Of a stretch of DNA of 64,000 nucleotides, positions 20,429 through 42,496 are shown piece after piece. The position numbers and the translations under genes were made by a program. The notes below the pieces were generated by a model that saw only the letters and a program-made list of their open reading frames with translations, did no database searches and was not told the origin of the DNA. How positions within the stretch are numbered: the stretch's first letter is position 1; each line of letters starts with the position of its first letter. Origin of the DNA: Clostridia bacterium (GTDB lineage Bacteria; Bacillota; Clostridia; Lachnospirales; Cellulosilyticaceae); assembly GCA_029239755.1 (NCBI GenBank), contig JARBUI010000004.1, forward strand, positions 1 through 64,000, in the 5' to 3' direction.

Positions 20429-20484
20429 CGTTTTAATTTCTATGTATACCTGATAATGAGTATAAATCTATTGGAGTGATAAAC

Positions 20485-21789
20485 ATGAAAGTATTGTATT
20501 ATGATTGTTTTTGTGGTATTAGCGGAGATATGAATCTAGCTGCGCTGCTAGACTTAGGAGTGCCTGCGGAATATTTAACACAAGAAATCTCAAAGCTTAA
20601 GTTGGATGCTGAGTATGAAATTAAGATTGAAAAGGCTGCTAAGCAAGGAATAACTGGCATTAGAGTAGATGTGATATTGAAAAATCAATCCTGCAGTGAA
20701 CATCCTGCAGATGGAAATCATCATGAGCATGGGAATATAAACGGACACCACCATACCCATGTTCATCATCATGCCCATAGTGAAGTTCATACTCATATAA
20801 AAAAGGATGAGCATCATCACAGAAATATAAAGGATATTGAAAATATTATAAGTTCCAGTTCTTTAAATGATAAGGTTAAAAAATTAAGTATGGACATGTT
20901 TATGAAGATAGCAGAAGCTGAAGCAAAAGTTCATGGGAAAGCTTTACATGAGGTGCATTTTCATGAGGTCGGAGCTGTTGATTCTATTATAGATATGGTA
21001 GGGGCAGCTATCTGCTTGGATTATCTGGAGGTGGATAAGATTCTTGCTTCTCCTGTTCAAGTGGGGGGAGGCTTTGTTAAGTGTGCACATGGACTTATGC
21101 CGGTCCCAGCACCAGCAACTGTAGAAATATTAAAGGAGATACCCATTAATACGGGTATAGTTCCTTTTGAGACAACTACTCCGACGGGAGCTGCTATCCT
21201 GGCAGCAAACGTTCAGAAATTTACCCCTAAAATAGATTTCGCTATAAAGAAAATCGCCTATGGCATAGGACATAGAGATTTAGAAATACCTAATGTATTA
21301 CGGGTTTATTTAGGAGAAACGAAAGAGTATGGATCTCCGGAAATAGAAGAACAGTATATGTTAGAAACGAACATAGATGATATGAATCCAGAATTTTATG
21401 GATATATTGAAGAAAAGCTTTTTGAAGGCGGGGCCTTAGATGTCTTTAAGACCCCTATATCTATGAAAAAGGGAAGGCCAGGAGTAAAATTAAGCGTATT
21501 AGTAAATAAACAAAGTGAAGAAAATATTCTTGATATCATTTTCACGGAAACCACTTCAATAGGCATCAGGAAATATAAAGTCGAGAAAATAATGTTAAAC
21601 AGGGATTTTTCCAAGATTAAAACACAATATGGAGAAGTGACTATCAAACAATCTTATTATAAAGGAGAGTTAATTAAGTATAAGCCAGAATACGAAGAGT
21701 GCAGAAGTATAGCAAAAGAAAATAATATAACGATAGATAAGGTTTATAAAGAAATCCATAAAAAGATAGGGGAGTTGTATGATAAATAA
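20485..21789 (+). CDS. larC: Nickel pincer cofactor biosynthesis protein LarC
   Basis: DCFCGISGDMNLAALLDLG, His-rich insert, HFHEVGAVDSIIDMVGA, LETNIDDMNPE; single uninterrupted ORF. Confidence 0.95.
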   Translation: MKVLYYDCFCGISGDMNLAALLDLGVPAEYLTQEISKLKLDAEYEIKIEKAAKQGITGIRVDVILKNQSCSEHPADGNHHEHGNINGHHHTHVHHHAHSEVHTHIKKDEHHHRNIKDIENIISSSSLNDKVKKLSMDMFMKIAEAEAKVHGKALHEVHFHEVGAVDSIIDMVGAAICLDYLEVDKILASPVQVGGGFVKCAHGLMPVPAPATVEILKEIPINTGIVPFETTTPTGAAILAANVQKFTPKIDFAIKKIAYGIGHRDLEIPNVLRVYLGETKEYGSPEIEEQYMLETNIDDMNPEFYGYIEEKLFEGGALDVFKTPISMKKGRPGVKLSVLVNKQSEENILDIIFTETTSIGIRKYKVEKIMLNRDFSKIKTQYGEVTIKQSYYKGELIKYKPEYEECRSIAKENNITIDKVYKEIHKKIGELYDK

Positions 21790-22591
21790 TGATAAATACA
21801 ATGAATTAATTAATTATCTTAAGCGTTTAGGAAAAGTTGTTATAGCTTTTTCGGGTGGAGTAGACAGTACTTTTTTAGTTAAAGCAGCCAAGGAGGCCCT
21901 TGGAGAACATGTGAAGGCAGTAACCATTGTATCTCCATATATTCCTAAATGGGAAATAGAAGAAGCTAAGGAATTAGTCCGCGAATTAGGGGTTAGGCAT
22001 GAAATTGTAGAGGCTCCCATTATTGAATCTATTAAATATAATCCTGAAGACAGATGCTATCTTTGTAAAACCGCTGTATTTAGTAAGATTATATCTATAG
22101 CTAAAGAAGAAGGATATCACTCTGTTGTTGACGGAACAAATTTTGATGACACAAGCGATTATAGACCAGGCCTGAGGGCACTGAAGGAATTAGAAGTAAG
22201 AAGTCCACTACTTGAATGTAAGTTGACCAAAGCAGAAATTAGAGAATTCTCCCATGAACTCGGTCTCAATACTTGGGACAAACCTGCATATGCTTGTCTT
22301 TTAACAAGAATACCTTATGGAAGTGAGCTTAAAGAAGAGGATTTTGAAAAAATCGAAAAGGCTGAAAAGTTTATGATGAGCATAGGGTTTAGAGCGGTTA
22401 GGGTAAGGTGTCATGAGAATCTCGCGAGAGTGGAAGTAAGTAGAGATGATAGAAGCAGGTTGTTTGATGAAGTGCTTTTAGATACTATTGCTCATAAGAT
22501 AAAGGCCTGTGGATTTAAGTATGTATCATTAGATTTAGAAGGTTATAGAGTAGGAAGTTTCAATGAAACGATGGTGAAAACGAATGAATAA
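21779..22591 (+). CDS. larE: ATP-dependent sacrificial sulfur transferase LarE
   Basis: AFSGGVDSTFL PP-loop, DRCYLCKTAVFS, ACLLTRIPYG; overlaps larC by 11 nt. Confidence 0.95.
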   Translation: MINNDKYNELINYLKRLGKVVIAFSGGVDSTFLVKAAKEALGEHVKAVTIVSPYIPKWEIEEAKELVRELGVRHEIVEAPIIESIKYNPEDRCYLCKTAVFSKIISIAKEEGYHSVVDGTNFDDTSDYRPGLRALKELEVRSPLLECKLTKAEIREFSHELGLNTWDKPAYACLLTRIPYGSELKEEDFEKIEKAEKFMMSIGFRAVRVRCHENLARVEVSRDDRSRLFDEVLLDTIAHKIKACGFKYVSLDLEGYRVGSFNETMVKTNE

Positions 22592-23330
22592 AGAGGAAAT
22601 TAGAAATTTATTGGAATCGGTTAAAGAGAATAAAATAAATATAGAAGAAGCTCTTGGAAAATTAGAAGATTTACCCTTTAAAGATTTGGGATTTGCAAAG
22701 ATAGATAACCATAGAGAATTAAGAGGGGGTTATCCTGAAGTTATATACTGTGGGGGTAAGACTGTAGAGCAAGTTAGAGATATAGTCCAGTTTATGCTGA
22801 CAAAAGATAATAACATATTGGGAACCAGAGCTACTGAAGAAATGTACCATGCAGTAAAGGAAATATGTGAAGAAGCAGAGTACAATAAGCTTGGAAGAAC
22901 AATAACTGTAAAGAAAAAAGAAGAACCTCTTACGGATAGTTATATTGCTGTAGTGGCGGCTGGGACATCAGACCTGCCAGTAGTAGAAGAGGCTGTTGAA
23001 ACTGCAAAAATACTAGGAAACCGAGTTGAAAAGATAACTGATGTAGGTGTTGCGGGTATACATAGACTCTTTTCAAGATTAGATATCATAAGAGGAGCTA
23101 AGGTGGTTATAGTGATTGCGGGAATGGAAGGAGCTTTAGCCAGTGTTATAGGAGGGCTTGTAAACAAACCTGTCATAGCAGTTCCGACTAGTGTTGGTTA
23201 TGGAGCAAACTTTGGAGGGATTTCAGCTCTGCTATCCATGCTAAATAGTTGTGCCAGCGGGGTTAGCGTAGTCAACATAGATAACGGATTTGGTGCAGCC
23301 TATAATGCCAGCATCATTAATAAATTATAA
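22584..23330 (+). CDS. larB: Nickel pincer cofactor biosynthesis protein LarB
   Basis: PurE-like domain AAGTSDLPVVEEAVETA, GMEGALASVIGGLVNKPVIAVPTSVGYG; overlaps larE by 8 nt. Confidence 0.94.
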   Translation: MNKEEIRNLLESVKENKINIEEALGKLEDLPFKDLGFAKIDNHRELRGGYPEVIYCGGKTVEQVRDIVQFMLTKDNNILGTRATEEMYHAVKEICEEAEYNKLGRTITVKKKEEPLTDSYIAVVAAGTSDLPVVEEAVETAKILGNRVEKITDVGVAGIHRLFSRLDIIRGAKVVIVIAGMEGALASVIGGLVNKPVIAVPTSVGYGANFGGISALLSMLNSCASGVSVVNIDNGFGAAYNASIINKL

Positions 23331-24485: not shown

Positions 24486-24522
24486 AAACAAATGCAGGTG
24501 AATGCCTGCATTTGTTTTTTTT
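24486..24522 (+). terminator. Intrinsic terminator
   Basis: aaacaaatgcagg/cctgcatttgttt 13-bp stem + T8. Confidence 0.8.
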
Positions 24523-24790: not shown

Positions 24791-25075
24791 GAATTCAATA
24801 GGAGGCAGATTTTTTAAAAAAGATAGAGCTAATTTTAGCTAATAAAATACTAAATAATTACTAAACTAAATACTTTACAACATAATTTGTACATAAATTC
24901 TTGCAGAAGTTAATAAACTTTTTAGTAGTTGCTATATATCAGAATACATGATTTCCCTGCTGTTTCGTTATTGTCTTGCAGAGAAGTCTGTAGAATAAAT
25001 TTTAAAATCTGTAAACAGAAATGTTACAGTACTTTGTAATGAACTAAAAACATTTATATTCAAGGGGGATGTAGT

Positions 25076-26188
25076 ATGAAAAGAATAACAAAAAAGATTG
25101 GTGCATTATTAACATGTGTTATGATGGCATTTTCACTTGCAGCTTGTGGGTCACTAGATAGCGCAGCTAATACATCTGCGCCAGCAGATACAGCAAAAAC
25201 AGATACAGCAAAAACAGACACAGCGCAGCCAGATGCAGCGGCAGCGGATACAACAAAAACAGATACTGCAAAGAGCAGCTATAAAATTGCAGTTGTTCCT
25301 AAATTAACAAGTATTGCTTGGTTTCAAAGAATGGAAGTTGGTGTAAAGGAATACGCTAAAGAAAAAGGTGTAGATGCTTTTTATACAGGGCCATCAGAGG
25401 GAGATGGAGCACTTCAGGCGCAGGCAATTGAAGATTTAATCTCACAAGGTGTTGATGCTATTTGCGTCGTTCCTTTTTCAACTGAATCATTAGAACCAGT
25501 TCTTAAAAAAGCAAAAGAAGCTGGTATTGTTGTTATTACTCATGAAGCAGCTAATATGCAAAATATTGATTATGATATTGAGGCATTTAATAACGAAGAA
25601 TACGGTACACATTTTATGGCGAGACTTGGTGAGTTAACAGGGGGCAAAGGAGAGTATATCTTAACAGTAGGTGGACTCACTTCAGCGTCACATAATCAAT
25701 GGGTTGATGCAGGGAAAAAATTACAAGAAGAAAAGTTCCCAGATATGAAACAATATGGGGACAAGATTGAAACTGCAGATGATCAATCAGTATCTTACAA
25801 TAAAGTTAAAGAAGCTTTAACAGCTAATCCAAATATTGCAGCAATTCAAGGGTCTGCTATGCCTGACGTTGCAGGAGCAGCTTTAGCAGTAGAAGAATTA
25901 GGTTTAGCAGGAAAAGTTAAAATTTGCGGTACATCACTTGTATCTGTTGCAGGTAAGTATGTTAAAAACGGAACCATTGATACGATTTCTTTCTGGGATC
26001 CATCACTTGCAGGTAAAGCAATGATTGAACTTGCAGTTAAAGTATTAGATGGGGAAAAAATTGAAACAGGTTTAGATTTAGGCATTTCTGGCTACGATAA
26101 GTTAACTTTAGACGGAAAAGTACTTACCGGTCAAGCTTGGATTGATGTTAATAAAGATAATGTAGATGATCCAGCATATAATTTTTAA
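25076..26188 (+). CDS. LsrB-like sugar ABC transporter substrate-binding lipoprotein
   Basis: Lipobox FSLAACGS; PKLTSIAWFQRMEVGVKEYAKEKG; LsrB-like C-terminus. Confidence 0.88.
   Translation: MKRITKKIGALLTCVMMAFSLAACGSLDSAANTSAPADTAKTDTAKTDTAQPDAAAADTTKTDTAKSSYKIAVVPKLTSIAWFQRMEVGVKEYAKEKGVDAFYTGPSEGDGALQAQAIEDLISQGVDAICVVPFSTESLEPVLKKAKEAGIVVITHEAANMQNIDYDIEAFNNEEYGTHFMARLGELTGGKGEYILTVGGLTSASHNQWVDAGKKLQEEKFPDMKQYGDKIETADDQSVSYNKVKEALTANPNIAAIQGSAMPDVAGAALAVEELGLAGKVKICGTSLVSVAGKYVKNGTIDTISFWDPSLAGKAMIELAVKVLDGEKIETGLDLGISGYDKLTLDGKVLTGQAWIDVNKDNVDDPAYNF
25187..25276 (+). repeat. 15-bp in-frame tandem repeat, 6 units (DTAKT-like pentapeptides)
   Basis: gatacagcaaaaaca x2, gacacagcgcagcca, gatgcagcggcagcg, gatacaacaaaaaca, gatactgcaaagagc in strict 15-nt register. 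Confidence 0.9.
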
Positions 26189-26215
26189 TCATTAGCAAGG
26201 TCTCACTATGTAGGT

Positions 26216-26269
26216 GCGAACCTCATGAAGATGCCAGTTCTAGAGGGATCTCTATGGGGTTCGTATTTT
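26216..26269 (+). terminator. Possible attenuator/partial terminator between SBP and ATPase genes
   Basis: gcgaacctcat ... atggggttcgt arms with inner agag/ctct hairpin, followed by atttttaaaa. Confidence 0.45.
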
Positions 26270-26292
26270 TAAAACAACAAAAGGAGGGGAGG

Positions 26293-27801
26293 ATGGAAAT
26301 GAATGAAGTATTTCTAAAACTAGAAGGCATTAAGAAATCATTTGGTGGTGTAGAAGCTTTAAAGGGTGTGGATTTAGAAATAAAAAAGGGTGAAATACAT
26401 TGTTTGGCCGGTGAAAATGGCTGCGGAAAATCAACACTCATCAAGGTTATTTCGGGTGCGCATGATGCAACAGAAGGAAATATTTACATTGAAGGCAAAA
26501 AAATAGAACATTTGAACCCCATTGATGCTATCAGATTAGGTATTCAAGTAATCTATCAGGATTTTGCTGTTTTTCCTAATCTTACAGTTGCCGAAAACAT
26601 TGCAATGAACAGGGCTCTGATGACAGGAGCTAAAAAAATGGATTGGAAGAAAGCAAGAGAACTTGCAGTTATGGCAATGGAACAAATTGGTGCTCATATG
26701 AATCCTGATATTTTAGTAGAAAGATTATCAGTAGCTAATAAGCAAATGGTTGCGATTTGCAGAGCAATTATTAACGATGCAAAACTATTAATACTAGATG
26801 AACCTACTACAGCACTTACTGCTAAAGAAGTTGATAAATTAAATATTATTATCAGAAGGTTAAAGGCTAAGGGCATTGCAATAGTTATTGTAAATCATAA
26901 ATTAGATGAGATTTATGGTATTGCAGACAAGTTAACTATTCTTAGAAATGGTGAGAATGTTGCAAATGGTGGAATAGAAGAGTTTGACAGAACAAGGTTT
27001 ATTAAAGATTTAACAGGCAGAGATATCGTAGAAACTACATATAGGCCAGAAAAATCAACAGAAGAAATTCTTAGAGTAGAGCGTTTTACAAGGAATGGTG
27101 CTTTTGAGGATGTCAGCTTTGTACTTAATAAAGGAGATGTGCTGGGAATCACAGGTCTTTTAGGTTCGGGACGTAGTGAAATAGGAGATGCACTGTTTGG
27201 TCTCGCGCCGGCTGAATCGGGAAAAGTATTTTTAAATGAGAAAGAAATTAGCATTAAATCAATTGAGGATGCTATGAATCATAAGATTGGTTATGTTCCT
27301 GAAGATAGGTTAACACAAGGTTTATTTCTTGATCGTTCTATCCAGGATAACACAGTTGCAGCGTCGATTAGCAAGTATTTGATAAAAGGGAAGCTAGACC
27401 ATGCCAAAATGTATGAAGTAACCAAAGAATGGATCAAAAAGATTGGTTGCATCGCACCGTCGCCAAATCCAGATATCCGCACCTTATCAGGAGGCAATGC
27501 TCAGAAAATGGTCATTGCAAAATGGCTGAATACAGAACCCAAGCTCCTGGTGTTAAATGGTCCTACGGTGGGAGTCGATGTTGGCTCTAAATCTGATATA
27601 CATATGATTTTACATGATCTTGTTAAAGCAGGAGTAGGCATTATTATTATTTCAGATGACCTGTCTGAACTCATACAAAATTGTAATAAGATCATGATTA
27701 TGAAAAATGGTAAGGCTTCAGGGATGCTTGAGGCAGCTACCCTAAATGAAACAGAATTAACGCATTTGTTAAGCGGCAAGAAGGAGGATAACAATGAATA
27801 A
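26293..27801 (+). CDS. Sugar ABC transporter ATP-binding protein (two ATPase domains, CUT2)
   Basis: GENGCGKSTLIKVISG, LLILDEPTTALT, second domain LSGGNAQKMVIAKWL. Confidence 0.95.
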   Translation: MEMNEVFLKLEGIKKSFGGVEALKGVDLEIKKGEIHCLAGENGCGKSTLIKVISGAHDATEGNIYIEGKKIEHLNPIDAIRLGIQVIYQDFAVFPNLTVAENIAMNRALMTGAKKMDWKKARELAVMAMEQIGAHMNPDILVERLSVANKQMVAICRAIINDAKLLILDEPTTALTAKEVDKLNIIIRRLKAKGIAIVIVNHKLDEIYGIADKLTILRNGENVANGGIEEFDRTRFIKDLTGRDIVETTYRPEKSTEEILRVERFTRNGAFEDVSFVLNKGDVLGITGLLGSGRSEIGDALFGLAPAESGKVFLNEKEISIKSIEDAMNHKIGYVPEDRLTQGLFLDRSIQDNTVAASISKYLIKGKLDHAKMYEVTKEWIKKIGCIAPSPNPDIRTLSGGNAQKMVIAKWLNTEPKLLVLNGPTVGVDVGSKSDIHMILHDLVKAGVGIIIISDDLSELIQNCNKIMIMKNGKASGMLEAATLNETELTHLLSGKKEDNNE

Positions 27802-28792
27802 TAAAATTAAGAATGTGCTGACGTCAAATGAAATGATCGTTGCGTATATTATCATAGGATTATCCATACTGATTGGCTGCGTTAATTCAGCATTTTTTGG
27901 AGTATCAACTTTAGTAAGCTTATCTCGGTCTATGCTGGTTATGCTTATATTTGCAGTTTGTGAGATGGTAGTTATTATATCAGGGGGGATAGATGTATCC
28001 TTTCCGGCTGTAGCTTGTATTTCACTCTATGCGACTATTAGATTTATGCTTGCTTCAGGGATAGATAGTCCGCTATTTGCATTTGCAATGGCAGCGGTTA
28101 TTGGTATTTCGTTTGGGGCTTTTAATGCATTTCTTATTTGTAAGATGAAAATCCCTCCGCTTATTGCTACTTTGGGTGTGAGCAGTGTAGCGAATGGAGG
28201 CACATTAGCATTTTTGGGTACAAAAGAAATTTCTAATATTCCTGAGCACGTAGATAAGCTTTCGCAAATTTTTATATTCACTTATACCAATGCGGGAGGT
28301 ATTAAATATTCGCTGACAGTTTTGTTTTTGATTCCTGTTATTGTTTGTATTGGAGCTTATATTATTTTGAAATACACGATGTTAGGGAGAGGAATCTACG
28401 CAATTGGCGGAGATAAAAATGCAGCTAGAATTGCGGGCTTTAATGTAACTAAAATCCAATTTATTATTTATATGACAGTTGGATGTTTTGCAGGTATAGG
28501 CGGCATGACATATATGATTCTTATGAGACAGGCAAGTCCGCAGGTGCTTATGGGCAGCGAAATGATGGTTATTGCGGCAGTAGTTATGGGCGGAGCAAGA
28601 ATTACTGGCGGACATGGTTCTGTTTTTGGAACGATTTTAGGTGTAGGTTTAATTACACTTGTACAAAATAACTTAATTATGCTTGGGGTCCCTACTCACT
28701 TCCAGACATTAGTAGTTGGTTTAATCATTGTAATTGGTATATCTATTACATCACTAAGAGCTAAGAAAATTGCTAATAGTGCGAAGGTTTAA
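27794..28792 (+). CDS. Sugar ABC transporter permease (CUT2)
   Basis: SGGIDVSFPAVA, GVSSVANGGTLAF, AIGGDKNAARIAGF. Confidence 0.93.
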   Translation: MNNKIKNVLTSNEMIVAYIIIGLSILIGCVNSAFFGVSTLVSLSRSMLVMLIFAVCEMVVIISGGIDVSFPAVACISLYATIRFMLASGIDSPLFAFAMAAVIGISFGAFNAFLICKMKIPPLIATLGVSSVANGGTLAFLGTKEISNIPEHVDKLSQIFIFTYTNAGGIKYSLTVLFLIPVIVCIGAYIILKYTMLGRGIYAIGGDKNAARIAGFNVTKIQFIIYMTVGCFAGIGGMTYMILMRQASPQVLMGSEMMVIAAVVMGGARITGGHGSVFGTILGVGLITLVQNNLIMLGVPTHFQTLVVGLIIVIGISITSLRAKKIANSAKV

Positions 28793-28806
28793 GGAGGGAA
28801 AGAAAA

Positions 28807-29781
28807 ATGGATAAACTCAAAACATCCTTAAAAAATACAGATAAAAATACAACTGCTTTATTTGGAATTGCGGTACTTATTTTTGTTATTATGGGAATCT
28901 TAGCGCCGAGGTCTTTCTTGGGTATTAAGAATCTCCAGGGCATGTGCGTTCAGTTTCCGGAATTTGGTATACTTGCGTTTGGTATGATGCTTGCTATGAT
29001 TTCGGGGGGGATTGACTTATCGCTTGTTGGAATAGCAAATTTTGCAGGAATTGTCGGCGCAGTTTTAATGATTAGAATGGGCGGGAGCAACTTTTCTATT
29101 GTTATAGGGATTGCAGCTGCAATACTTGTGGGAGCTTTATGTGGAGTATTCAATGGATTTTTAATTGGATATCTGCAAATCCCAGCTATGTTAGTTACTC
29201 TTGGAGGACTACAGCTCTATACAGGTCTTGGGCTTGCGATTACCAAAGGGCCTGCGATTATAGGTTTGCCTCCTGCATTCAATTTAATAGCAAATGGGAC
29301 TCTGCTTAATATTCCAGTTGCTCTCTTTATATTTGTTATAGCAGCTGTCGTTGTAAGCTTTTTATTAAAGTCTACTGTTTATGGTCAGCATGTAAGTTTC
29401 ATGGGAACTAACGCCACAGCTGCTAGATATTCCGGAATTAATAATTTAAAGGTTACCATTTATACATATGGATTATCAGGTATTCTAGGCGGAATTGGCG
29501 GTATTCTTATGGCATCCCATTATAATTCTGCAAAGTCTGATTATGGTTCAAGTTATACGCTTTTGACACTGCTTATTGTAGTACTCGGCGGGACGAATCC
29601 AGACGGCGGCCGCGGCCGAGTAATAGGAGTTACATTATCTGTTATTGTGCTGCAATTGGTATCCAGCGCATTTAATATCTTAAGAGTTAACGGATTTATT
29701 AAGACGTTCGTATGGGGAATCATTTTGCTTGCCATTATGATAGGAACTCATTTTATTGAAAAAAACAAACAGAGAAGTTAG
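28807..29781 (+). CDS. Sugar ABC transporter permease (CUT2)
   Basis: SGGIDLSLVGIANFAGI, LGGLQLYTGLGL, LGGTNPDGGRGRV. Confidence 0.93.
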   Translation: MDKLKTSLKNTDKNTTALFGIAVLIFVIMGILAPRSFLGIKNLQGMCVQFPEFGILAFGMMLAMISGGIDLSLVGIANFAGIVGAVLMIRMGGSNFSIVIGIAAAILVGALCGVFNGFLIGYLQIPAMLVTLGGLQLYTGLGLAITKGPAIIGLPPAFNLIANGTLLNIPVALFIFVIAAVVVSFLLKSTVYGQHVSFMGTNATAARYSGINNLKVTIYTYGLSGILGGIGGILMASHYNSAKSDYGSSYTLLTLLIVVLGGTNPDGGRGRVIGVTLSVIVLQLVSSAFNILRVNGFIKTFVWGIILLAIMIGTHFIEKNKQRS

Positions 29782-29791
29782 GAGAAGAGCT

Positions 29792-30274
29792 ATGAGGAAG
29801 ATTAAAGCAAAGCCAATAACTAGAGAGAACTTTACGCCCTATGGAAGCTTTTATAGTATTACTGAGCCAACGGGGCATAACCTAGGTGCATTTTATCATG
29901 ATCACGTATTATTCCCGGTATCTGGACATATGCCTATAGCATTTTCAGCACTCGTTTCAGAAAAACCAGAAAAAATGGTTGTTACAGCAGCAGAATATCA
30001 TAACACAACAGCGGAAGGTGTACTTCCGATAGATGATGATGTTATTTTGCATGTTGCACCGCCATCCAATAAACCTGTTCCAGAATTGACAGAGGCATTT
30101 ATAGTACCTAAGGGGACTATGGTTAAATTAAATACTGGGGTATGGCATCTGGCAGCTCTGCCTATTCACCAAGATAAAGTACATGTACTTATAGTTCTGC
30201 CAGAAAGAATATATTTTAATGACTGCACAGTAGTAGAGTATGCACCTGAAGATCAAATAGAAATTGCATTATAA
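29792..30274 (+). CDS. Ureidoglycolate lyase (AllA)-like cupin-fold protein
   Basis: FTPYGSF, HNTTAEGVLPIDDDVILHVAPP, FIVPKGTMVKLNTGVWHLAALPI; ATG 29792 behind ggagaagagct. Confidence 0.7.
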   Translation: MRKIKAKPITRENFTPYGSFYSITEPTGHNLGAFYHDHVLFPVSGHMPIAFSALVSEKPEKMVVTAAEYHNTTAEGVLPIDDDVILHVAPPSNKPVPELTEAFIVPKGTMVKLNTGVWHLAALPIHQDKVHVLIVLPERIYFNDCTVVEYAPEDQIEIAL

Positions 30275-30303
30275 AAACTATACTAAACTTAGGAGGTAAC
30301 ACT

Positions 30304-31314
30304 ATGAAAAAAATAATTAACAGACCAGAAGATTACGTAAATGAAATGTTAGAAGGACTATACATTGCACATCCAGATTTGATTACATATACGGGAGATG
30401 ATGTGCGCTGCTTAGTGGCGGTTAATAAAAAAGCAGGCAAAGTTGGTATTGCAACAGGGGGCGGATCAGGACATTTGCCACTATTTTTGGGATATGTAGG
30501 AAAAGGTATGCTGGATGGCTGCTCTGTAGGAGATGTATTCCAGTCACCAAGTGCAGAACAAATGCTGGCTGTTACAAAAGAAATTGATTCAGGTGCAGGC
30601 GTATTATATATTTATGGTAATTACAACGGAGATATTTTTAACTTTGACATGGCAGCTGAAATGGCAGACTTTGAGGAAAGTATTCGCGTTGAAAGTGTTG
30701 TAGCGGGTGAAGATGTTGCATCTGCAGGTCCTGCAGCAGATGGTGAAAAAAATACCAGAAGAGGTGTTGCAGGGATTATCTTTGTTTATAAGTGTGCAGG
30801 GGCAGCTGCAGATGCGATGATGGACTTAGACGAGGTAAAACGTGTAGCTGAAAAAGCAGCAGCTAACGTACGAACAATGGGAGTAGCTTTAACCCCTTGC
30901 ATCGTACCGAGAGTTGGAACACCTGGTTTTACAATTGGCGCGGACAAAATGGAAATCGGCATGGGCATTCACGGAGAAACAGGTATTAGACGTGGAAAAT
31001 TAGAACCAGCTGACCAAATCGTTGATGAAATGCTAGAAAAAATTGTTGCAGATATACCTTATGTATCAGGGGATGAAGTAGCAGTTCTTGTAAATGGTCT
31101 TGGGGCGACACCTTTGGATGAGCAGTACATCGTAACAAGAAGAATTGATTCTTATTTAAAAGAAAAAGGTATCAAGGTATATCGTTACTATGTCGGTGAA
31201 TACGCAACGTCTCTTGAAATGGCAGGATTTTCAATTTCATTATTAAAATTAGATGATGAGTTAAAAGGCTTGATCGATGCGCCTGCTCAAACACCTTTCT
31301 TTGTACAATTGTAG
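30304..31314 (+). CDS. DhaK-like dihydroxyacetone/tetrulose kinase subunit
   Basis: GGGSGHLPLFLGYVGKGML, NYNGDIFNFDMA, MEIGMGIHGETG with substrate-binding His. Confidence 0.93.
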   Translation: MKKIINRPEDYVNEMLEGLYIAHPDLITYTGDDVRCLVAVNKKAGKVGIATGGGSGHLPLFLGYVGKGMLDGCSVGDVFQSPSAEQMLAVTKEIDSGAGVLYIYGNYNGDIFNFDMAAEMADFEESIRVESVVAGEDVASAGPAADGEKNTRRGVAGIIFVYKCAGAAADAMMDLDEVKRVAEKAAANVRTMGVALTPCIVPRVGTPGFTIGADKMEIGMGIHGETGIRRGKLEPADQIVDEMLEKIVADIPYVSGDEVAVLVNGLGATPLDEQYIVTRRIDSYLKEKGIKVYRYYVGEYATSLEMAGFSISLLKLDDELKGLIDAPAQTPFFVQL

Positions 31315-31328
31315 GAGGTATGTGTGTT

Positions 31329-31958
31329 ATGAATAACAGCTATTTAATTGAACTTTTAAAAGAACTTCAAGATATTATGTGCGAAAACAGGGACTATTTA
31401 ATTAAACTAGATAGCATAGTGGGTGATGGAGATTTAGGGCTTACTATGAGTGATGGATTTACAGCAGCTTATAAAGCGGTTTCTGCAAGCGGCGAAACGG
31501 ATGCTGGAAAACTCCTTTACAATGCTGGGAAGGCAATGTCGACAGCTGTACCATCCACAATGGGAACACTAATGGCTTCTGGCCTTATGCAAGCAGGCAA
31601 AGTATTAAAAGGAAAAACGGAATTAGAAAAAGCAGATATAGCAGCTCTGTTTGAGGCCTACTTAGAAGGCGTTGCAAACAGAGGAAAGGCAAAAGTGGGA
31701 GATAAGACATTTTTAGATGGGCTTGCCCCAGCTGTAGCTGCGCTCAAATCAGCACTGCAAGCTGGAGATGAGCTTAATGTAGCAGCTGCAGCGGCTAGAG
31801 AGGCTGCAGAAGCAGGTTTCCAGCATACAACAACTATGATTGCAGTTCACGGCAGAGCGGCAACAAGAGGAGAAGCATCAAGAGCGCTTCAGGATCCAGG
31901 TGCAGCCGTAGCGATGCTGATGATGAAAGCGTTTGAAAAATCATTTTTAGCTAAATAG
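31329..31958 (+). CDS. DhaL-like nucleotide-binding kinase subunit
   Basis: LDSIVGDGDLGLTMSDGF, RGKAKVGDKTFLDGLAPA, GRAATRGEASRALQDPGA. Confidence 0.92.
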   Translation: MNNSYLIELLKELQDIMCENRDYLIKLDSIVGDGDLGLTMSDGFTAAYKAVSASGETDAGKLLYNAGKAMSTAVPSTMGTLMASGLMQAGKVLKGKTELEKADIAALFEAYLEGVANRGKAKVGDKTFLDGLAPAVAALKSALQAGDELNVAAAAAREAAEAGFQHTTTMIAVHGRAATRGEASRALQDPGAAVAMLMMKAFEKSFLAK

Positions 31959-32025
31959 CATATGAATAATAATTAACCTATTAAGCGTTATATATAGCAG
32001 AGATAGAACTTTTCTAGGAAATGGT

Positions 32026-32070
32026 AAAAGAGTCTAAAGTTAGAGTTTTTCTAATTTTAGACTCTTTTTG
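32026..32070. terminator. Intrinsic terminator between convergent genes
   Basis: aaaagagtctaaagttag / ctaattttagactctttt stem + T-tract. Confidence 0.8.
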
Positions 32071-32140: not shown

Positions 32141-33145
32141 TTATTGTTGCACAGCACAAGTACTGTGACGAACCACAATTGATCCGCCAACACAAGTTTT
32201 AACATTTTTAAAAGAGGAGTCTTCAATGGCAGCGTGAAGATGTCTTAATGCTAAAGAACCCATTAGTTTTTTGGGTACACTCATAGTTGAAAGGCAGGGG
32301 GAGTTAATGGCAGAAAAAGGAATATCATCAAATCCGATTACAGAAATATCACGGGGTATTTTATATTTAAATTCATTTACAGCTTTCATTGCACCGATTG
32401 CAATAGTATCATTGTCTGCAAAAGCACAACTAGGTAATTTTATGCCCTGAGCCAGATAGCTTTTCATACTATGATAAGAGCCGAGTAATGTTGGTGTTAA
32501 TAAGAATTCATTTGAAGGATCAAAGCGGAGGTTTAATTTTTTGGCAGACTCCATAAAGCTGAGAGCTCGTTCATCAAAGTTTTGAATATTGATATTGCTT
32601 CGGAAATAGGCAACATGCTTATGACCTAGCTCTGCAAGATGAGATAAGGCATCGTAAACAATCTCTCGGTTGCTTATTGCAATGGAATTACAATGAAAGT
32701 TAGGCATTGCATTATCAACAACGATATACGGAATAGGTATTTTTTCTAAAAGCGGGTAAGAAGAAAAATCAAGTTCTGTGCCTAGAAGAATTAATCCATG
32801 AAAAGACGCGTAATCAATATTTTGAAGAGTTTCCTCTAAATGATTTTCAGAAATAACTATACTTAAATTATAACCTTGACTGCGGCAGTCATTTTCAATA
32901 GAGTCCATAATGGTAGAAATAAATCCGGCATTTTCTTCAACGATCATACCATGCTTAATATATTTTAAAAATAATAGGTTTTTAGGTGAAGTACTAGCTT
33001 TTTTAGGAAGGGTGTAATGATATTCGTCTAACAGGTCTAAAATCAATTTGCGGGTCTCTTTTCCTACACCTTTTTTGTTATTTAGTACAAGAGAAACTGC
33101 TGTAGGAGAAACACCAGCAATATCTGCTATTTCCTTTAGTGTCAA
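32141..33145 (-). CDS. LacI family transcriptional regulator
   Basis: MTLKEIADIAGVSPTAVSLVLNNKKGVGKETR HTH and periplasmic-binding-like effector domain. Confidence 0.95.
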   Translation of the reverse strand: MTLKEIADIAGVSPTAVSLVLNNKKGVGKETRKLILDLLDEYHYTLPKKASTSPKNLLFLKYIKHGMIVEENAGFISTIMDSIENDCRSQGYNLSIVISENHLEETLQNIDYASFHGLILLGTELDFSSYPLLEKIPIPYIVVDNAMPNFHCNSIAISNREIVYDALSHLAELGHKHVAYFRSNINIQNFDERALSFMESAKKLNLRFDPSNEFLLTPTLLGSYHSMKSYLAQGIKLPSCAFADNDTIAIGAMKAVNEFKYKIPRDISVIGFDDIPFSAINSPCLSTMSVPKKLMGSLALRHLHAAIEDSSFKNVKTCVGGSIVVRHSTCAVQQ

Positions 33146-33244: not shown

Positions 33245-34477
33245 CTACTGCTTGCCGTATAAAACAAGGTGCTTGGGGATGCCATTATCATATTTAATAT
33301 TTGCTTCACCTTGGATGAGTGGTTTTAGGTATTGAATCATTTCATCAGTTACATCGTTTCCAGCTGCATTTATTAATTGCAACGGTATTTTCTTTTCGAA
33401 GTTTGCTACTGTTGATACGGGAACGGAAATAAATTCAATATCGTAAGGGGAAGAGCTTTTTCTTCGAATAGAGGCCATTTCGCCAGATGCACCTTCAAGT
33501 GCACACTGCAGTGCTTTCATGCCGAGCATTCTGGATTCACTCAAATCGGTGGCACTGGCAATATGTGCAGCTGAACGCTGCATTAAATTTAACTCTATAG
33601 AACGTACTTTGCAGCCAATTCTATTTCTTACAAGATTCTCAAGCATACGCCCCACTCCGGCGATGTACTTATGACCAAACACATCAAAATCTCCTGACTG
33701 AATTTGTTCTGATATATACTTGCCTTCCGTATCCTTTATGCCTTCGCTGACTGCTACAATGATAGAACCGTGTTCTTTTAGTTTATATTTTACATCTTGT
33801 ATAAAGGATTCTGTGTTGAAGGGTACTTCGCATAAGTAGATTAAGCTGGGGCCTACACCACCGTTTAATCTGGATAAAGCTGAAGCAGCTGTTAACCACC
33901 CGGCATTTCTCCCCATGATTTCCACAATTGTAACGGCCATAGTAGCATATACGGCAATGTCCCTCTCTAGTTCTGAACAAGTCGTTGCCACATATTTAGC
34001 GGCGGAGCCAAATCCTGGACAGTGATCTATCTGTACCAAATCATTATCTATTGTTTTTGGTGCGCCTATAATGTTAATATCCTGTATATTATTTAGTTTT
34101 AGATATTCAGATAACTTATGTACTGTATCCATTGAATCATTTCCACCAATATATATGAAATAGGAAATGTCATGTTTTCTAAATATATTAATCAGTGTTT
34201 CGTATGGAGTGTTATTATCTCCGTAGTGGTCTAACTTAAATCTGCAGGAACCAAGTGCAGCAGCGGGTGTTTGACATAGTAATTCTATGGTATTTGTATC
34301 TTTTATTATCTCATTCAAATCTATAAAAGCCTCATCGAGTACACCTTGTATGCCGTTAATGGCTCCGTATATTTTATCTACTTTAGAACTTGTTTGGGCT
34401 CCTTGTAATATACCTGCTAAAGTTGCATTGATCGCTGCTGTGGGTCCGCCGGATTGTGCAATAAGAAGATTTTTCAT
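33245..34477 (-). CDS. Phosphofructokinase family, probable diphosphate-dependent
   Basis: AQSGGPTAAINATLAG, IGGNDSMDTVHKL, GAPKTIDNDL (PPi-PFK signature), MGRNAGWL. Confidence 0.9.
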   Translation of the reverse strand: MKNLLIAQSGGPTAAINATLAGILQGAQTSSKVDKIYGAINGIQGVLDEAFIDLNEIIKDTNTIELLCQTPAAALGSCRFKLDHYGDNNTPYETLINIFRKHDISYFIYIGGNDSMDTVHKLSEYLKLNNIQDINIIGAPKTIDNDLVQIDHCPGFGSAAKYVATTCSELERDIAVYATMAVTIVEIMGRNAGWLTAASALSRLNGGVGPSLIYLCEVPFNTESFIQDVKYKLKEHGSIIVAVSEGIKDTEGKYISEQIQSGDFDVFGHKYIAGVGRMLENLVRNRIGCKVRSIELNLMQRSAAHIASATDLSESRMLGMKALQCALEGASGEMASIRRKSSSPYDIEFISVPVSTVANFEKKIPLQLINAAGNDVTDEMIQYLKPLIQGEANIKYDNGIPKHLVLYGKQ

Positions 34478-36596: not shown

Positions 36597-37601
36597 ATGA
36601 AAACAACAATCAAAGATATTGCGCAACAAGCTCATGTATCAGTTGGAACAGTTTCCAAAATTCTTAATAAGAAAGATGGGCATATTAGTGATGAAACGAG
36701 ACAAAAGGTGATGGCTGTAGCGAAACAGCTTAATTATACACCAAATACTTTAGCAAGAAGTCTTGTGACAAAACAAACAAAGACAATAGGGCTTATTTTA
36801 CCTGATATTTCAAATCCTTTTTTTCCGGAACTTGCAAGAGGTGCTGAAGATAAGGCTAGTGAATTAGGATATAGTATTATGTATTGTAATACTGATGATG
36901 ATGTAAAAAAGGAAGATAAGTATATCCAAATGCTTACTGAAAAAATGGCTGATGGTATTATCATTACCCAGTCTGTTGCAAGAAAAATGACATCAGAAAG
37001 ACTGCAGTTAGCTAGAACACCCATTATTTTAATTGACAGAGATGCAGAGGGAGAAGGGGTTGGTGGAAAAGTTCTTGTTGATAACCTGATGGGAGCTTAT
37101 GAAGCTATAAAACATTTACTTATAAAAGGGTATAGAAATATAGTATTTGTTGCAGGGCCGTTGACCTCAAACACAACAAAGGCGAGGCTAGAAGGTTATA
37201 AAAGGGCTTTAGATGAATTTAAAGTTCCTTTTAACAAAGATTATATTTTAGAAGGACAATATAAAAGTGAATGGGGTTTTAAGGCAGTCAATCAACTATT
37301 TGAAAAAAAACTTAATTTTGATGCAGTATTTTGTGGAAATGATGTTATTGCTATTAGCGTAGTTAAGGCACTAAAAGATGCAGGTAAATTAATCCCAGAA
37401 GATGTAGCTGTTATTGGATATGATGATATACACATGGCAAGTCTTATAGAACCGCCGCTCACTACAGTGCGTCAGCCGATATATGAAATGGGTTATCGCG
37501 CTGTTGAAATGCTGGTAGATATTATTGAAAATCCAAATCAAGATATAAAAGAAAGAAGAATATTATTAGCAACTAAGCTAATAATAAGAAAGACGACTTA
37601 G
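36597..37601 (+). CDS. rbsR: LacI family regulator of ribose operon
   Basis: MKTTIKDIAQQAHVSVGTVSKILNKKDGHISDETR; immediately upstream of rbsK. Confidence 0.9.
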   Translation: MKTTIKDIAQQAHVSVGTVSKILNKKDGHISDETRQKVMAVAKQLNYTPNTLARSLVTKQTKTIGLILPDISNPFFPELARGAEDKASELGYSIMYCNTDDDVKKEDKYIQMLTEKMADGIIITQSVARKMTSERLQLARTPIILIDRDAEGEGVGGKVLVDNLMGAYEAIKHLLIKGYRNIVFVAGPLTSNTTKARLEGYKRALDEFKVPFNKDYILEGQYKSEWGFKAVNQLFEKKLNFDAVFCGNDVIAISVVKALKDAGKLIPEDVAVIGYDDIHMASLIEPPLTTVRQPIYEMGYRAVEMLVDIIENPNQDIKERRILLATKLIIRKTT

Positions 37602-37621
37602 ATAATTTTTTTTAGGGTTTT

Positions 37622-37636
37622 AGGAAAACGTTTGCC
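37622..37636 (+). promoter_or_regulatory. Putative RbsR/cre-type operator 2
   Basis: aggaaaacgtttgcc between rbsR stop and rbsK SD. Confidence 0.75.
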
Positions 37637-37660
37637 TAATGCAGATACAGGAGGTTAAGA

Positions 37661-38572
37661 ATGATTACTGTTATTGGAAGTTTAAATATGGATCTAGTTA
37701 CTAAAACAGACAAGGTTCCTAAAGTGGGAGAAACATTTTTGGGAGCTGATTTTAAACAGGCAGCTGGAGGGAAAGGTGCAAACCAGGCAGATGCCATTGC
37801 AAAACTAGGTGGAAAGGTAGCGATGATAGGAAGAGTCGGAAATGATCAATTTGGGCATACTCTTATGAAATCCTTAGAATGTGATGGGGTTGAAGTATCT
37901 TGCATCCAAATAACTGAAGGAACGTCTACTGGTATTGCAACAATTATTGTAAATGGCGACGGAGATAACTCGATTATTGTAGTTCCGGGAGCAAATTTTA
38001 AGTTGACTCCAGAAGATGTTGACGATGCGGAAGTGGTCATTAAGAACTCGGATATAATGATTGCGCAGCTTGAAGTACCTATTGATACTATCAAATACGC
38101 TTTTAAAAAAGCAAAAGAGTACGGGAAATATACTATATTAAATCCTGCACCAGCTAGAGAGCTTGATGAAGATCTGCTTAAAATGACTGATCTTTTGGTT
38201 CCGAATGAAACGGAACTTGAAATACTAACTGGCAGGACGCTTGTGACAAAAGAAGATATGCTTGCAGCGTCCAAGGAACTTATGCAAAAAGGAGTCAAAG
38301 AGATGATGGTTACTTTAGGAAGCAACGGATGTCTTCATATTGACAAGACAAGCAGCACCCATTATCCGGCACATCTTGTAGAGGCGGTAGATACGACTGC
38401 AGCAGGGGATAGCTTTATTGGCGCCATTGCGACTGCATTTTCAGAAGGGAAATCAATTGAGGAAGCCATTAACTTTGCATCAAAAGTAAGTGCACTCACT
38501 GTAACTCGCGCAGGCGCTCAGGATTCTTTGCCTACCAAAAAAGAAGTAGAAGAATACATGACAAAAATTTAG
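37661..38572 (+). CDS. rbsK: Ribokinase
   Basis: GSLNMDLVTKTDKVPKVGETFLG, AAGGKGANQA, DTTAAGDSFIGA. Confidence 0.96.
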   Translation: MITVIGSLNMDLVTKTDKVPKVGETFLGADFKQAAGGKGANQADAIAKLGGKVAMIGRVGNDQFGHTLMKSLECDGVEVSCIQITEGTSTGIATIIVNGDGDNSIIVVPGANFKLTPEDVDDAEVVIKNSDIMIAQLEVPIDTIKYAFKKAKEYGKYTILNPAPARELDEDLLKMTDLLVPNETELEILTGRTLVTKEDMLAASKELMQKGVKEMMVTLGSNGCLHIDKTSSTHYPAHLVEAVDTTAAGDSFIGAIATAFSEGKSIEEAINFASKVSALTVTRAGAQDSLPTKKEVEEYMTKI

Positions 38573-38588
38573 GACAGGAGAAGCTTTC

Positions 38589-39008
38589 ATGAAAAAAGGT
38601 GTTCTTATTCATTCGGAAATATCTTATGTTATCAGCAAATTAGGACATGGAGATAGTATTGTTATTGCAGACAGCGGTTTGCCTATTCCCGGAAGTGTAC
38701 AAAGAATAGATTTGGCATTGACGGAAGGGATTCCATCCTTTATGCAAGTCCTGCAGGCAGTCTTAAGCGAACAATGTGTAGAGGAAATGATTATTGCACA
38801 TGAAATAAAAGATAAAAATGCAAAACTGTATCATCAGGTATTAGAAGTTATTCACAATTATGAAAAAAACGGAAATGTGAAACTTAAAGTAACAGAAGTC
38901 TCTCATGAAGAGTTCAAAGCAGAGACTCAAAAAACCAAGGCAATTATAAGGACGGGAGAATATACACCTTATGCAAACATCATACTAAGATCGGGTGTGG
39001 TTTTTTAG
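38589..39008 (+). CDS. rbsD: D-ribose pyranase
   Basis: [46 protein letters not shown]. Confidence 0.97.
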
Positions 39009-39021
39009 GAGGAGGATGGAT

Positions 39022-40527
39022 ATGGATCAAGCAATTTTAGAGATGAAAGGAATTACCAAGGAGTTTCCGGGAGTAAAAGCGTTAAATTCGGTTAACTTCC
39101 GTATTGTACAGGGAAAAGTTATGGCACTCTTAGGTGAAAATGGTGCAGGTAAATCGACTCTAATGAAAATACTTACTGGAGTATATCCTAAAACCCATGG
39201 AACAATTATCTATGAAAATAAAGAGGTGACCTTTAACACTACAAAAGACTCACAAGAAAGTGGGATTGCAATTATACATCAGGAGCTTAACCTGATACCG
39301 CAGCTTACCATGGGTGAAAATATATTTTTGGGTCGTGAACCAGTAAATGCAATGCGAAAAATTGACTCAAAGGCTCTTTATAAAGAGGCAGAAAAACTGC
39401 TTAGAAGATTAGGTGTAACGGAAGATCCTCGCACTATTACTGGGGAACTTAGTATAGGGAAACAACAGATGGTTGAAATTGCAAAGGCGTTATCTTTAGA
39501 TGCGAAGATCATTATCATGGATGAACCAACAGATGCTCTTACGGATAATGAGACAGAAAACCTTTTTAGAGTAATGAGAGAGTTAAAAAAAGAAGGACGC
39601 AGCCTCGTCTATATATCTCATCGTTTAAAAGAGATTTTTGAAGTATGTGACTATGCGACAGTTCTTAGAGATGGAGAGTTTGTTGCAGAGCATGCAGTAA
39701 GCGAATTAACTGAAGATAAAATCATCGAACTCATGGTGGGAAGAAAACTGACGGAGCAGTTCCCAAGGATAGAATCAAAGCTTGGGGAGTGCCAGCTGGA
39801 AGTTAGACATTTATCTAATGAATATGTAAAAGATGTTAGTTTTACGCTTAGAAAAGGTGAAATAATTGGTATTTCAGGACTCATGGGAGCAGGAAGGACA
39901 GAACTTGCTAAGACCATTTATGGGGCTATTCCCAAAGAAGGCGGAGAGATTCTTATAGGCGGCAAATTGGCAGAAATTAGATCTCCGCAGCAAGGGATAA
40001 AAGCAGGTATTTCTTATGTTTCGGAAGACAGAAAAAGAAATGGACTAGTATTAGGTCTTTCGATTAAAGAGAATATGACACTATCGTCATTAAAAAGTTT
40101 TTCAAGTGCACTTGGAACACTTAGTAATATACAAGAAGAAGAAGCTTCAAAGAACTATGTAAAAAACATGTCTATAAGAACACCAGGCATTAATCAGCTT
40201 GTTAAAAACTTAAGTGGTGGTAATCAGCAAAAGGTATCTATTACTAAGAGTCTTATGACTAAGCCCAAAATATTAATATTAGATGAACCTACAAGAGGAG
40301 TAGATGTAGGTGCAAAGAAAGAAATATATGATATCATTAATAACTTCAAAAAAGAAGGGATGAGCATTATCATGATTTCATCGGAAATACCTGAAATCCT
40401 TGGGATGAGTGACCGCATTCTTGTTATGCATGAAGGAAGAATAACGGGTGAGCTAAATAGAGAAGAGGCTACTCAGGAAAGTATTATGAAATGTGCAGTA
40501 GGTGCAAAAGGAGGGGCAAGCAAATGA
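39022..40527 (+). CDS. rbsA: Ribose ABC transporter ATP-binding protein
   Basis: [45 protein letters not shown]; start at ATG 39016/39022 behind AGGAGGAGG. Confidence 0.95.
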
Positions 40528-41468
40528 GAACACTTTTACAAAAAGATACACTAATGAAATATAAATCGGTTATAGGATTAATTCTCTTTTCAGCTATTGT
40601 AACAATTATTAATCCAAGCTTTTTAAGTATGTCCAATATACTTAACGTGTTTAGGCAAACATCTATCAATGCTATTATTGCTGCAGGAATGACATTTATT
40701 ATACTTACAGGAGGGATTGATCTTTCTGTAGGGTCTGTGCTTGGACTTGCTGGAGCTATTGCGGCATCTATGGTTACAGGGGGGCAGAATATAGTAGTTG
40801 TCCTCTTGGCGGCCATTTTGATTGGGGCTGCTATTGGAGCAGTTAGCGGCATAGTCATCAGCAAAGGAAAGGTACAAGCGTTTATTGCTACATTAGCTAT
40901 GATGACATTAGCAAGAGGATATACGCTAGTCTATACAGACGGAAAGCCTATTGGTGTTGAAGAGGCAAAGAGTGCAGAGGTTTTTGCCTCAATAGGTTCG
41001 GGATATTTATTTGGTATTCCAATCCCCATTTATATTACTGCATTAGTCTTTATTATGTCATATTACATTTTAAAACATACCAGGTTTGGACGCTATGTCT
41101 ATGCTATGGGGGGAAATGAAGAAGCTACCAAGCTGTCAGGGATTAATGTAGACAGGGTTAAAATCTATGTTTATGCATTATCGGGAGCCCTTGCAGCTCT
41201 CGCGGGAATTATTGTGACAGCAAGACTCTCATCAGCTCAGCCACAAGCAGGTTCGGGCTATGAACTTGATGCCATTGCAGCTGTTGTACTTGGCGGTACC
41301 AGTCTTGCAGGAGGGATTGGAAGTATATTTGGAACAATAGTAGGAGCTCTCATTATCGGTATTTTAAATAATGCTCTTAACTTAATGAATGTATCTTCAT
41401 ACTATCAATTATTAGCTAAAGGGCTAGTTATATTGATTGCAGTATTGTTAGATAGAAAGAATAAATAA
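40524..41468 (+). CDS. rbsC: Ribose ABC transporter permease
   Basis: [37 protein letters not shown]; start adjusted to ATG 40524. Confidence 0.95.
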
Positions 41469-41554
41469 TACTCCTATGAAGATAATAAAAACTATGGGTA
41501 TTATGCAGTACAAGAGAAAAGAGATAGGGTACAAACAAAAACTAGGAGGAAAAA

Positions 41555-42496
41555 ATGATGAAAAAAATGATTGCATTCTTAAGCGTATTAGCACTTTCTT
41601 TAGGGGTTTTTGCAGGATGTGCGGCTAAACCGGAAGCACCAGCAGAAACAACAACGCCAGCACCAGGTGAAACACAGGCTGGAGGTTCAAAGCAAATAGG
41701 TCTTGTTATTTCAACACTTAATAATCCTTTCTTCGTAACGCTTAAAGAAGGGGCAGAGGCAAAGGCTGAGGAATTAGGGTATGATTTGGTCGTGTTAGAT
41801 TCACAAAATGACCCAAGTAAAGAGATGTCAAATGTGGAAGACCTTTTAACAAGAGAAGTAGCAGTTCTTTTAATTAACCCTACAGATTCAAAGTCAGTTG
41901 GTAATGCAGTAAAATTAGCTAATAATAAAAAGATACCTGTTATCACACTTGATCGCGGGGCTGATTCTGGTGAAGTAGTTGCACATATTGCTTCAGATAA
42001 CGTAGCTGGAGGAAAGATGGCTGGTGAATACATTGTAGAGAAGCTTGGAGGCAAAGGAAGTGTAGTAGAACTTGAAGGAATTGCTGGAGCATCAGCAGCA
42101 AGAGACCGTGGAAATGGTTTTAATGAAGCACTAAAAGGAACTGAAATTCAAGTTGTAGCAAAGCAGACTGCTGATTTTGATAGAACAAAAGGACTTTCAG
42201 TTATGGAAAATATTCTTCAGGCACAGGCTAATATTGATGCTGTATTTGCTCATAATGATGAAATGGCACTAGGTGCTTTAAAGGCAATACAGGCATCGGG
42301 AAGAAAAATTATGGTAGTTGGTTTTGATGCTACAGACGATGCAGTAAAAGCAGTAGAAAACGGAGAAATGGCAGCTACAGTTGCGCAACAGCCTACTTTA
42401 ATTGGTTCAGCAGGTATTGAGTACGCTGATAAGGTAATTAAAGGAGAAACAGTAGAGGCTTCCGTTCCTATTGAATTAAAATTAGTTACAAAATAA
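41555..42496 (+). CDS. rbsB: Ribose ABC transporter substrate-binding lipoprotein
   Basis: Lipobox [57 protein letters not shown]. Confidence 0.95.

Follow-up and report, generated by a model that had tools for sequence, protein, structure and literature searches.

The closest described relatives of the kinase genes considered here are the PTS-type DhaKLM systems of E. coli and L. lactis and the ATP-dependent dihydroxyacetone (DHA) kinases (DAKs), in which K and L are fused. A ketose-1-phosphate logic also underlies the DHAP shunt or drd pathway (MtnK-MtnA-Ald2), in which an aldolase yields DHAP and an aldehyde (PMC6079011, PMC10986504). The drd pathway begins with the phosphorylation of an aldose by a kinase, and PMC6079011 mentions neither microcompartments nor a dihydroxyacetone kinase; a fucose-mutarotase homologue is present in one drd cluster (PMC6079011, PMC10986504). 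D-ribulose is taken up by the Rbl/Aau systems, which combine an ABC importer with an FGGY ribulokinase or AraB, and whose binding protein AauA has a Kd of 2 μM for D-ribulose (PMC12307932). The DUF4867 proteins SqvB and SftX are AllA-fold cupins encoded beside ketose genes, and ring opening in sulfoglycolysis has been proposed as their role (PMC11968277, PMC9594981).

The locus described here lies in a window of 64,000 nucleotides, part of contig C32 of a 3.4 Mb clostridial genome (73% complete) that is near Anaerocolumna, the genus of the closest named relatives of the kinase. Seven intact, co-directional and uninterrupted open reading frames encode a substrate-binding protein (SBP), a CUT2 ATPase, two permeases, an AllA-like protein, DhaK and DhaL (Table 1), as an earlier note on this DNA had described; DhaM, dehydrogenase and isomerase genes are absent from the operon, as also stated there, and so is an aldolase gene. 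We read the operon, with a probability of roughly 0.4, as a self-contained module for the uptake and activation of a ring-forming ketose, most likely a D-ribulose-type pentulose. The ABC importer would take in the cyclic ketose and the AllA-like cupin would speed its conversion from the ring to the open-chain keto form, which the conserved His of DhaK would bind covalently; DhaL would then phosphorylate the ketose at C1 with ATP and without DhaM, and a class II aldolase of the FucA/Ald2 type, whose gene lies elsewhere in the genome, would split the ketose-1-phosphate into DHAP and a small aldehyde. In this scheme we infer the substrate, the C1 phosphorylation, ATP as the donor, the ring opening and the aldolase partner. 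If one sugar has to be named, D-ribulose itself is our first choice, though one we hold loosely.

Table 1 Features of the operon and its 3' flank in the window
Feature	Coordinates	Strand	Basis or remark
SBP, lipoprotein, Peripla_BP_4	25076..26188	+	Pfam; closest solved structure 5BRA; K, W, E and H of a D-ribulose-type site kept
CUT2-type sugar ABC ATPase, two ATPase domains	26293..27801	+	Pfam ABC_tran
ABC permease 1	27794..28792	+	Pfam BPD_transp_2
ABC permease 2	28807..29781	+	Pfam BPD_transp_2
AllA-fold cupin, predicted ExHx4E...H metal site; proposed mutarotase	29792..30274	+	Ureidogly_lyase, weak, 43 bits
DhaK, GHLP/YGNY clade; H56, D109, H218 kept, E57 to L, K104 to G	30304..31314	+	Dak1, 403 bits
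DhaL, same clade; GDGDLG and PSTMGTLM; three Asp ligands kept	31320..31958	+	Dak2, 133 bits
Inverted repeat and T-run 3' of DhaL, terminator-like	32010..32070	+	By eye; terminator scan does not list it
LacI-family regulator	32141..33145	-	Relatives close to DhaKL in 32 of 80 loci, of ABC, microcompartment and fused type
Phosphofructokinase, PRK14072 type; place in system uncertain	33245..34477	-	Immediately 3' of DhaL in relative G007

The genome holds a single Dak1 gene, whose product differs from E. coli DhaK in two motifs, with GHLP for GHEP and YGNY for IKNY; the motifs quoted earlier (GSGHLPLF, GMGIHGETG, VGDGDLG and AVPSTMGTLMAS) are exact. When aligned to E. coli K-12 DhaK, all examined relatives of at least about 60% identity have Glu57 replaced by Leu and Lys104 by Gly, and His56, Asp109 and His218 are constant among them, so the substrate-binding His of GMGIHGETG is indeed kept. 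The replacement of Lys104, which the earlier note lacked, is the most telling change in DhaK: this residue, which from the E. coli structure we take to bind DHA, is present in E. coli, PTS-type and ATP-type DHA kinases and is Gly in all clade members. The DhaL proteins of the clade read GD[GS]DLG, compared with GD[AG]DHG in canonical DhaL and GDGDFG in ATP-type DAKs, and have PSTMGTLM where both canonical DhaL and ATP-type DAKs have GGASG. Because every examined relative of at least 60% identity shows one linked signature, these motif changes are not due to chance.

Several further comparisons set the clade apart. In a maximum-likelihood tree with three canonical DhaKs, the variant falls on its own branch (SH-aLRT 100) and does not cluster with them. 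Canonical DhaKs from the same order share ~50-55% identity with the window DhaK, and both subunits score below the NCBIfam equivalog cut-offs (dhaK1, 384 versus 406 bits; dha_L_ycgS, 137.0 versus 138.3 bits). The pair thus shares with PTS-type DhaKLM the fold families, the three conserved DhaK residues and the three Asp ligands of DhaL, but has lost Glu57 and Lys104; the ATP-dependent DAKs are single K-L fusions with Lys104 and GGASG, and the window pair differs from them in these motifs and in being encoded by two separate genes. Members of the clade occur in Firmicutes, spirochaetes and Enterobacterales, and such proteins are annotated as 'dihydroxyacetone kinase subunit DhaK'; we found no substrate assignment for the clade in the open-access literature. 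The clade is a distinct and apparently uncharacterised kinase branch within a real, ordered and widespread system of known parts, and its signature and gene neighbours together suggest a substrate other than DHA.

No match to DhaM (TIGR02364) was found in the window's own genome (73% complete) or in the complete relative G002 (100%), and the other close carriers also gave none except G007, where DhaM adjoins another DhaK, of canonical type, on contig C3. More broadly, among 50 variant-bearing genomes 40 have no DhaM above cut-off; 10 have one, its position at the variant locus having been checked incompletely. The proposal of a stand-alone kinase therefore agrees with what the genome contains, and the lack of DhaM there, in G002 and in most variant genomes makes ATP the likely phosphoryl donor.

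To place the kinase in context, we compared 80 loci from other species that carry the variant. These comprise ABC-importer loci like that in the window (type a); microcompartment loci with MtnK, MtnA, a class II aldolase and an acylating aldehyde dehydrogenase, together with PduL, a CoA transferase and an alcohol dehydrogenase (type b); galactitol-type PTS loci, also found on enterobacterial plasmids, with an aldolase immediately upstream in 12 of 12 (type c); and DhaK-DhaL fusions next to a FucI-family isomerase (type d). Relatives 82-84% identical to the window DhaK end MtnK-MtnA-aldolase microcompartment operons, and in many genomes a related kinase is joined to the genes of a DHAP shunt. 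MtnK was found in all 13 type-b genomes searched, a few of which had been assigned to type b on account of MtnK, and by coordinates it lies in or beside the locus in most of them; in G163 we saw directly the order MtnK-MtnA-(divergent regulator)-aldolase-ALDH-shell-PduL-...-ADH-DhaK-DhaL. Across 196 genomes related to that of the window, MtnK scored above cut-off in 5 of the 7 with a close variant DhaK versus 11 of the 189 others (Fisher 4e-5, kinship ignored). To map types a and b onto the tree takes a minimum of four changes for each on well-supported branches, which, with 84%-identical DhaKs in both, suggests that the two types probably share a reaction.

The PTS loci that join an aldolase to variant DhaKL are L045, L061-L063, L067, L093, L095, L098-L100, L103 and L109, and the copies L112 and L114, carried by enterobacterial plasmids, lie amid IS and transposon genes. 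Most of these galactitol-type loci add another DhaK, which belongs to a third signature class (Glu57 with Gly104) and occurs as a partner there. Six spirochaete and related DhaKL loci (L071, L076, L085, L087, L091 and L105) also carry FGGY kinase, BtpA/SgcQ-family and M29-peptidase-family genes in varied combinations. The inositol-like genes that adjoin DhaKL in L034 were judged to be chance neighbours.

The window operon encodes none of the three DHAP-shunt enzymes, but all are present in the same genome, in an MtnK-MtnA-aldolase microcompartment operon on C20 (L125, 714-19677) that is without DhaKL and is apparently a compartment-housed DHAP shunt with a FucA-type aldolase. The microcompartment aldolases retain all of the FucA residues Asn29, Thr43, Gly44, Ser71, Ser72, Glu73, His92, His94 and His155, which we take to bind the phosphate of DHAP and the metal. 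Since every one of these is kept, the enzymes probably cut ketose-1-phosphates, and DhaKL acting as a ketose C1 kinase would feed them directly. In the PTS-type aldolases, the phosphate-loop residues Gly44 and Ser71 are replaced, so these enzymes may release free DHA, which would then be the kinase substrate in those loci. G002 and G007 carry the operon and have no full match to MtnK, and only distant relatives (~50%) of the C20 aldolase.

The description of the SBP as LsrB-like holds at the superfamily level only, as RhaS outscores LsrB (130 versus 111 bits) and both fall below cut-off. Its closest solved relatives are 5BRA and 9I1M, the latter being AauA of EHEC with D-ribulose, a member of the same SBP superfamily. 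Four of the six AauA contacts to D-ribulose are kept in the window protein, and Lys37, Trp43, Glu118 and His167 are identical in it and in all DhaKL-linked SBPs examined. At the other two positions the window has Asp for Glu196 and Met for Ser223, and the linked SBPs have Asp or Glu and mostly Met, respectively; in AauA these residues are assigned to the 'C5' hydroxyl (PMC12307932), a numbering that we could not reconcile with a furanose, so we draw no conclusion from them. The conserved Trp stacks on the sugar ring in AauA (PMC12307932), which disfavours DHA and tetruloses as ligands. Imported 5-deoxyribulose, at first favoured through the link to MtnK, was set aside because without a C5 hydroxyl it could not close into the ring implied by the SBP site and by a mutarotase; the unrelated site of the SBP in the MtnK operon counts further against it.

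Of 28 ABC loci, 18 have the AllA-like gene no more than 2.5 kb from DhaKL, versus 1 of 52 others, so its conservation with the kinase, on which the earlier proposal depended, is borne out; where any of the 196 relatives of the window genome has a close orthologue, it adjoins DhaKL. On the tree, where independent pairs are few, the link between ABC loci and the AllA-like gene does not reach significance. The protein scores far below the NCBIfam cut-off for AllA (36 versus 230 bits) and below that of Pfam DUF4867 (PF16161; 23 versus 28.7 bits), and its start is more probably the ATG at 29792 than the TTG at 29756, as the ATG is preceded by AGGAGAAGAGCT (by inspection). In a Foldseek search with the AlphaFold model (pLDDT 88), the best match was AllA (2bdr; TM 0.86, E 4e-12), followed by DUF4867 and then, with weaker scores, by further cupins, among them the sugar isomerases 3kmh/3mpb and a cupin phosphoglucose isomerase. 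Glu68, His70, Glu75 and His119, the predicted metal ligands, are invariant in 18 rows, and the Gln of E. coli AllA (ExHx4Q...H) is Glu in all 22 rows. This putative site would resemble that of DUF4867, formed in SqvB by Glu97, His99, Glu103 and His150 (PMC11968277), rather than that of AllA, with a spacing that differs from DUF4867 by one residue; no sulfoglycolysis genes were seen here. The step left unassigned in the earlier note can now be given a likely role in ring opening, or mutarotation, and a ketose ring opener is plausible. In five microcompartment-type loci, the position immediately upstream of DhaK is taken by a FucU-type mutarotase, which may serve MtnK instead. Two more AllA-like genes of the same genome (C13; L151 5139-10365 and L152 5295-10893) lie in operons with FGGY sugar kinases, one of which adds an ABC importer and glycyl-radical-enzyme-like and activase-like genes.

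The pentulose reading draws on the loss of Lys104 from a DhaK that keeps its three other conserved residues, on the position of the clade beside an aldolase in every PTS locus and beside a FucI-family isomerase when fused, and on the company that the other AllA-like genes of this genome keep with FGGY sugar kinases. Against it stand the lack of an aldolase in the operon itself, the two carriers without a full MtnK match, the two altered AauA contacts, the non-significance of the ABC-AllA association after correction for relatedness and the finding that mutarotase activity could not be shown for the DUF4867 relative, which did not speed up the reaction in exchange NMR (PMC11968277). The self-contained layout of the operon, with neither aldolase nor isomerase, would also be explained if the importer took in DHA or a DHA adduct and an ATP-dependent DhaKL turned it into DHAP with no further enzyme, and such scavenging is compatible with the retained His56, Asp109 and His218; its best argument is that DHA could come from the PTS-type aldolases, whose phosphate loop is altered. 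We nevertheless consider DHA scavenging rather unlikely, as the lysine of DHA kinases is Gly throughout the clade, MtnK-aldolase operons already release their triose as DHAP and would make a DHA kinase superfluous, the SBP has retained a site for stacking against a sugar ring, and a ring opener would be pointless for DHA. It is unlikely, too, that the pentulose scheme holds with the cupin acting as an aldose-ketose isomerase, so that an imported aldose would become the ketose for DhaKL: the weaker fold matches to cupin isomerases and the FucI-family isomerase in the neighbouring place of the fused type fit this, but the best fold and sequence matches are to AllA and then DUF4867, DUF4867 co-occurs with a separate isomerase in sulfoglycolysis (PMC9594981), and the SBP site resembles a ketose site.

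The earlier note had proposed an imported ketose, possibly a tetrulose. The ketose is supported; the tetrulose fares less well, because the SBP keeps residues that in AauA hold cyclic D-ribulose and because the linked aldolases point to cleavage of a ketose-1-phosphate into DHAP and an aldehyde. DhaKL homologues do act on erythruloses in tetritol pathways, a precedent to which our results lend no support. However, neither an RpiB/TpiA-like tetrulose-phosphate isomerase nor a tetritol dehydrogenase could be recognised next to the window operon, a tetrulose is unable to close into the ring for which the SBP site is shaped, and the linked MtnK-MtnA-aldolase genes handle C5 sugars, so that an erythrulose operon is less likely than a pentulose one and, overall, quite unlikely. 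Uptake and phosphorylation of AI-2, with DhaKL in place of LsrK, would suit an SBP of the LsrB/RhaS superfamily but is very improbable: among the ligand residues of LsrB, which we take to be K, D, D, Q, P and A, the Lys alone is kept in the window SBP, which therefore lacks the AI-2 signature and leads us to reject such uptake, and no lsrF or lsrG was seen nearby.

More tentatively still than for the operon itself, we suggest that this widespread DhaKL branch is an ATP-dependent ketose 1-kinase that would receive its sugars from ABC importers, PTS transporters or MtnK salvage and feed class II aldolases, including those of the microcompartment DHAP shunt, with an AllA-fold ring opener added in ABC operons. 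If so, many annotated DhaKL pairs are misnamed, including plasmid copies in Klebsiella, Citrobacter and E. coli; anaerobes would gain a kinase for their ketose and DHAP-shunt pathways; and the AllA/DUF4867 fold would gain a testable role as a ketose ring opener.

A terminator-like hairpin lies 5' of the operon at 24486-24517 (terminator scan). CTAAAT repeats, possible regulator sites, occur at 24830-24880 and 5' of the SBP gene in L127; their spacing is ~11 bases in G002 and less regular in the window. By eye, no convincing LacI operators were common to the window and the C20 operon. A PRK14072-group phosphofructokinase accompanies DhaKL in a few close relatives (window 33245-34477; L128 7095-8324; L043). 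Ribose-operon-like genes (LacI regulator, RbsK, RbsD, ABC ATPase, permease and SBP) lie close downstream at 36597-42496, and on the other side, at 20476-23330, are larC-, larE- and larB-like genes of nickel-pincer cofactor synthesis, named by eye.
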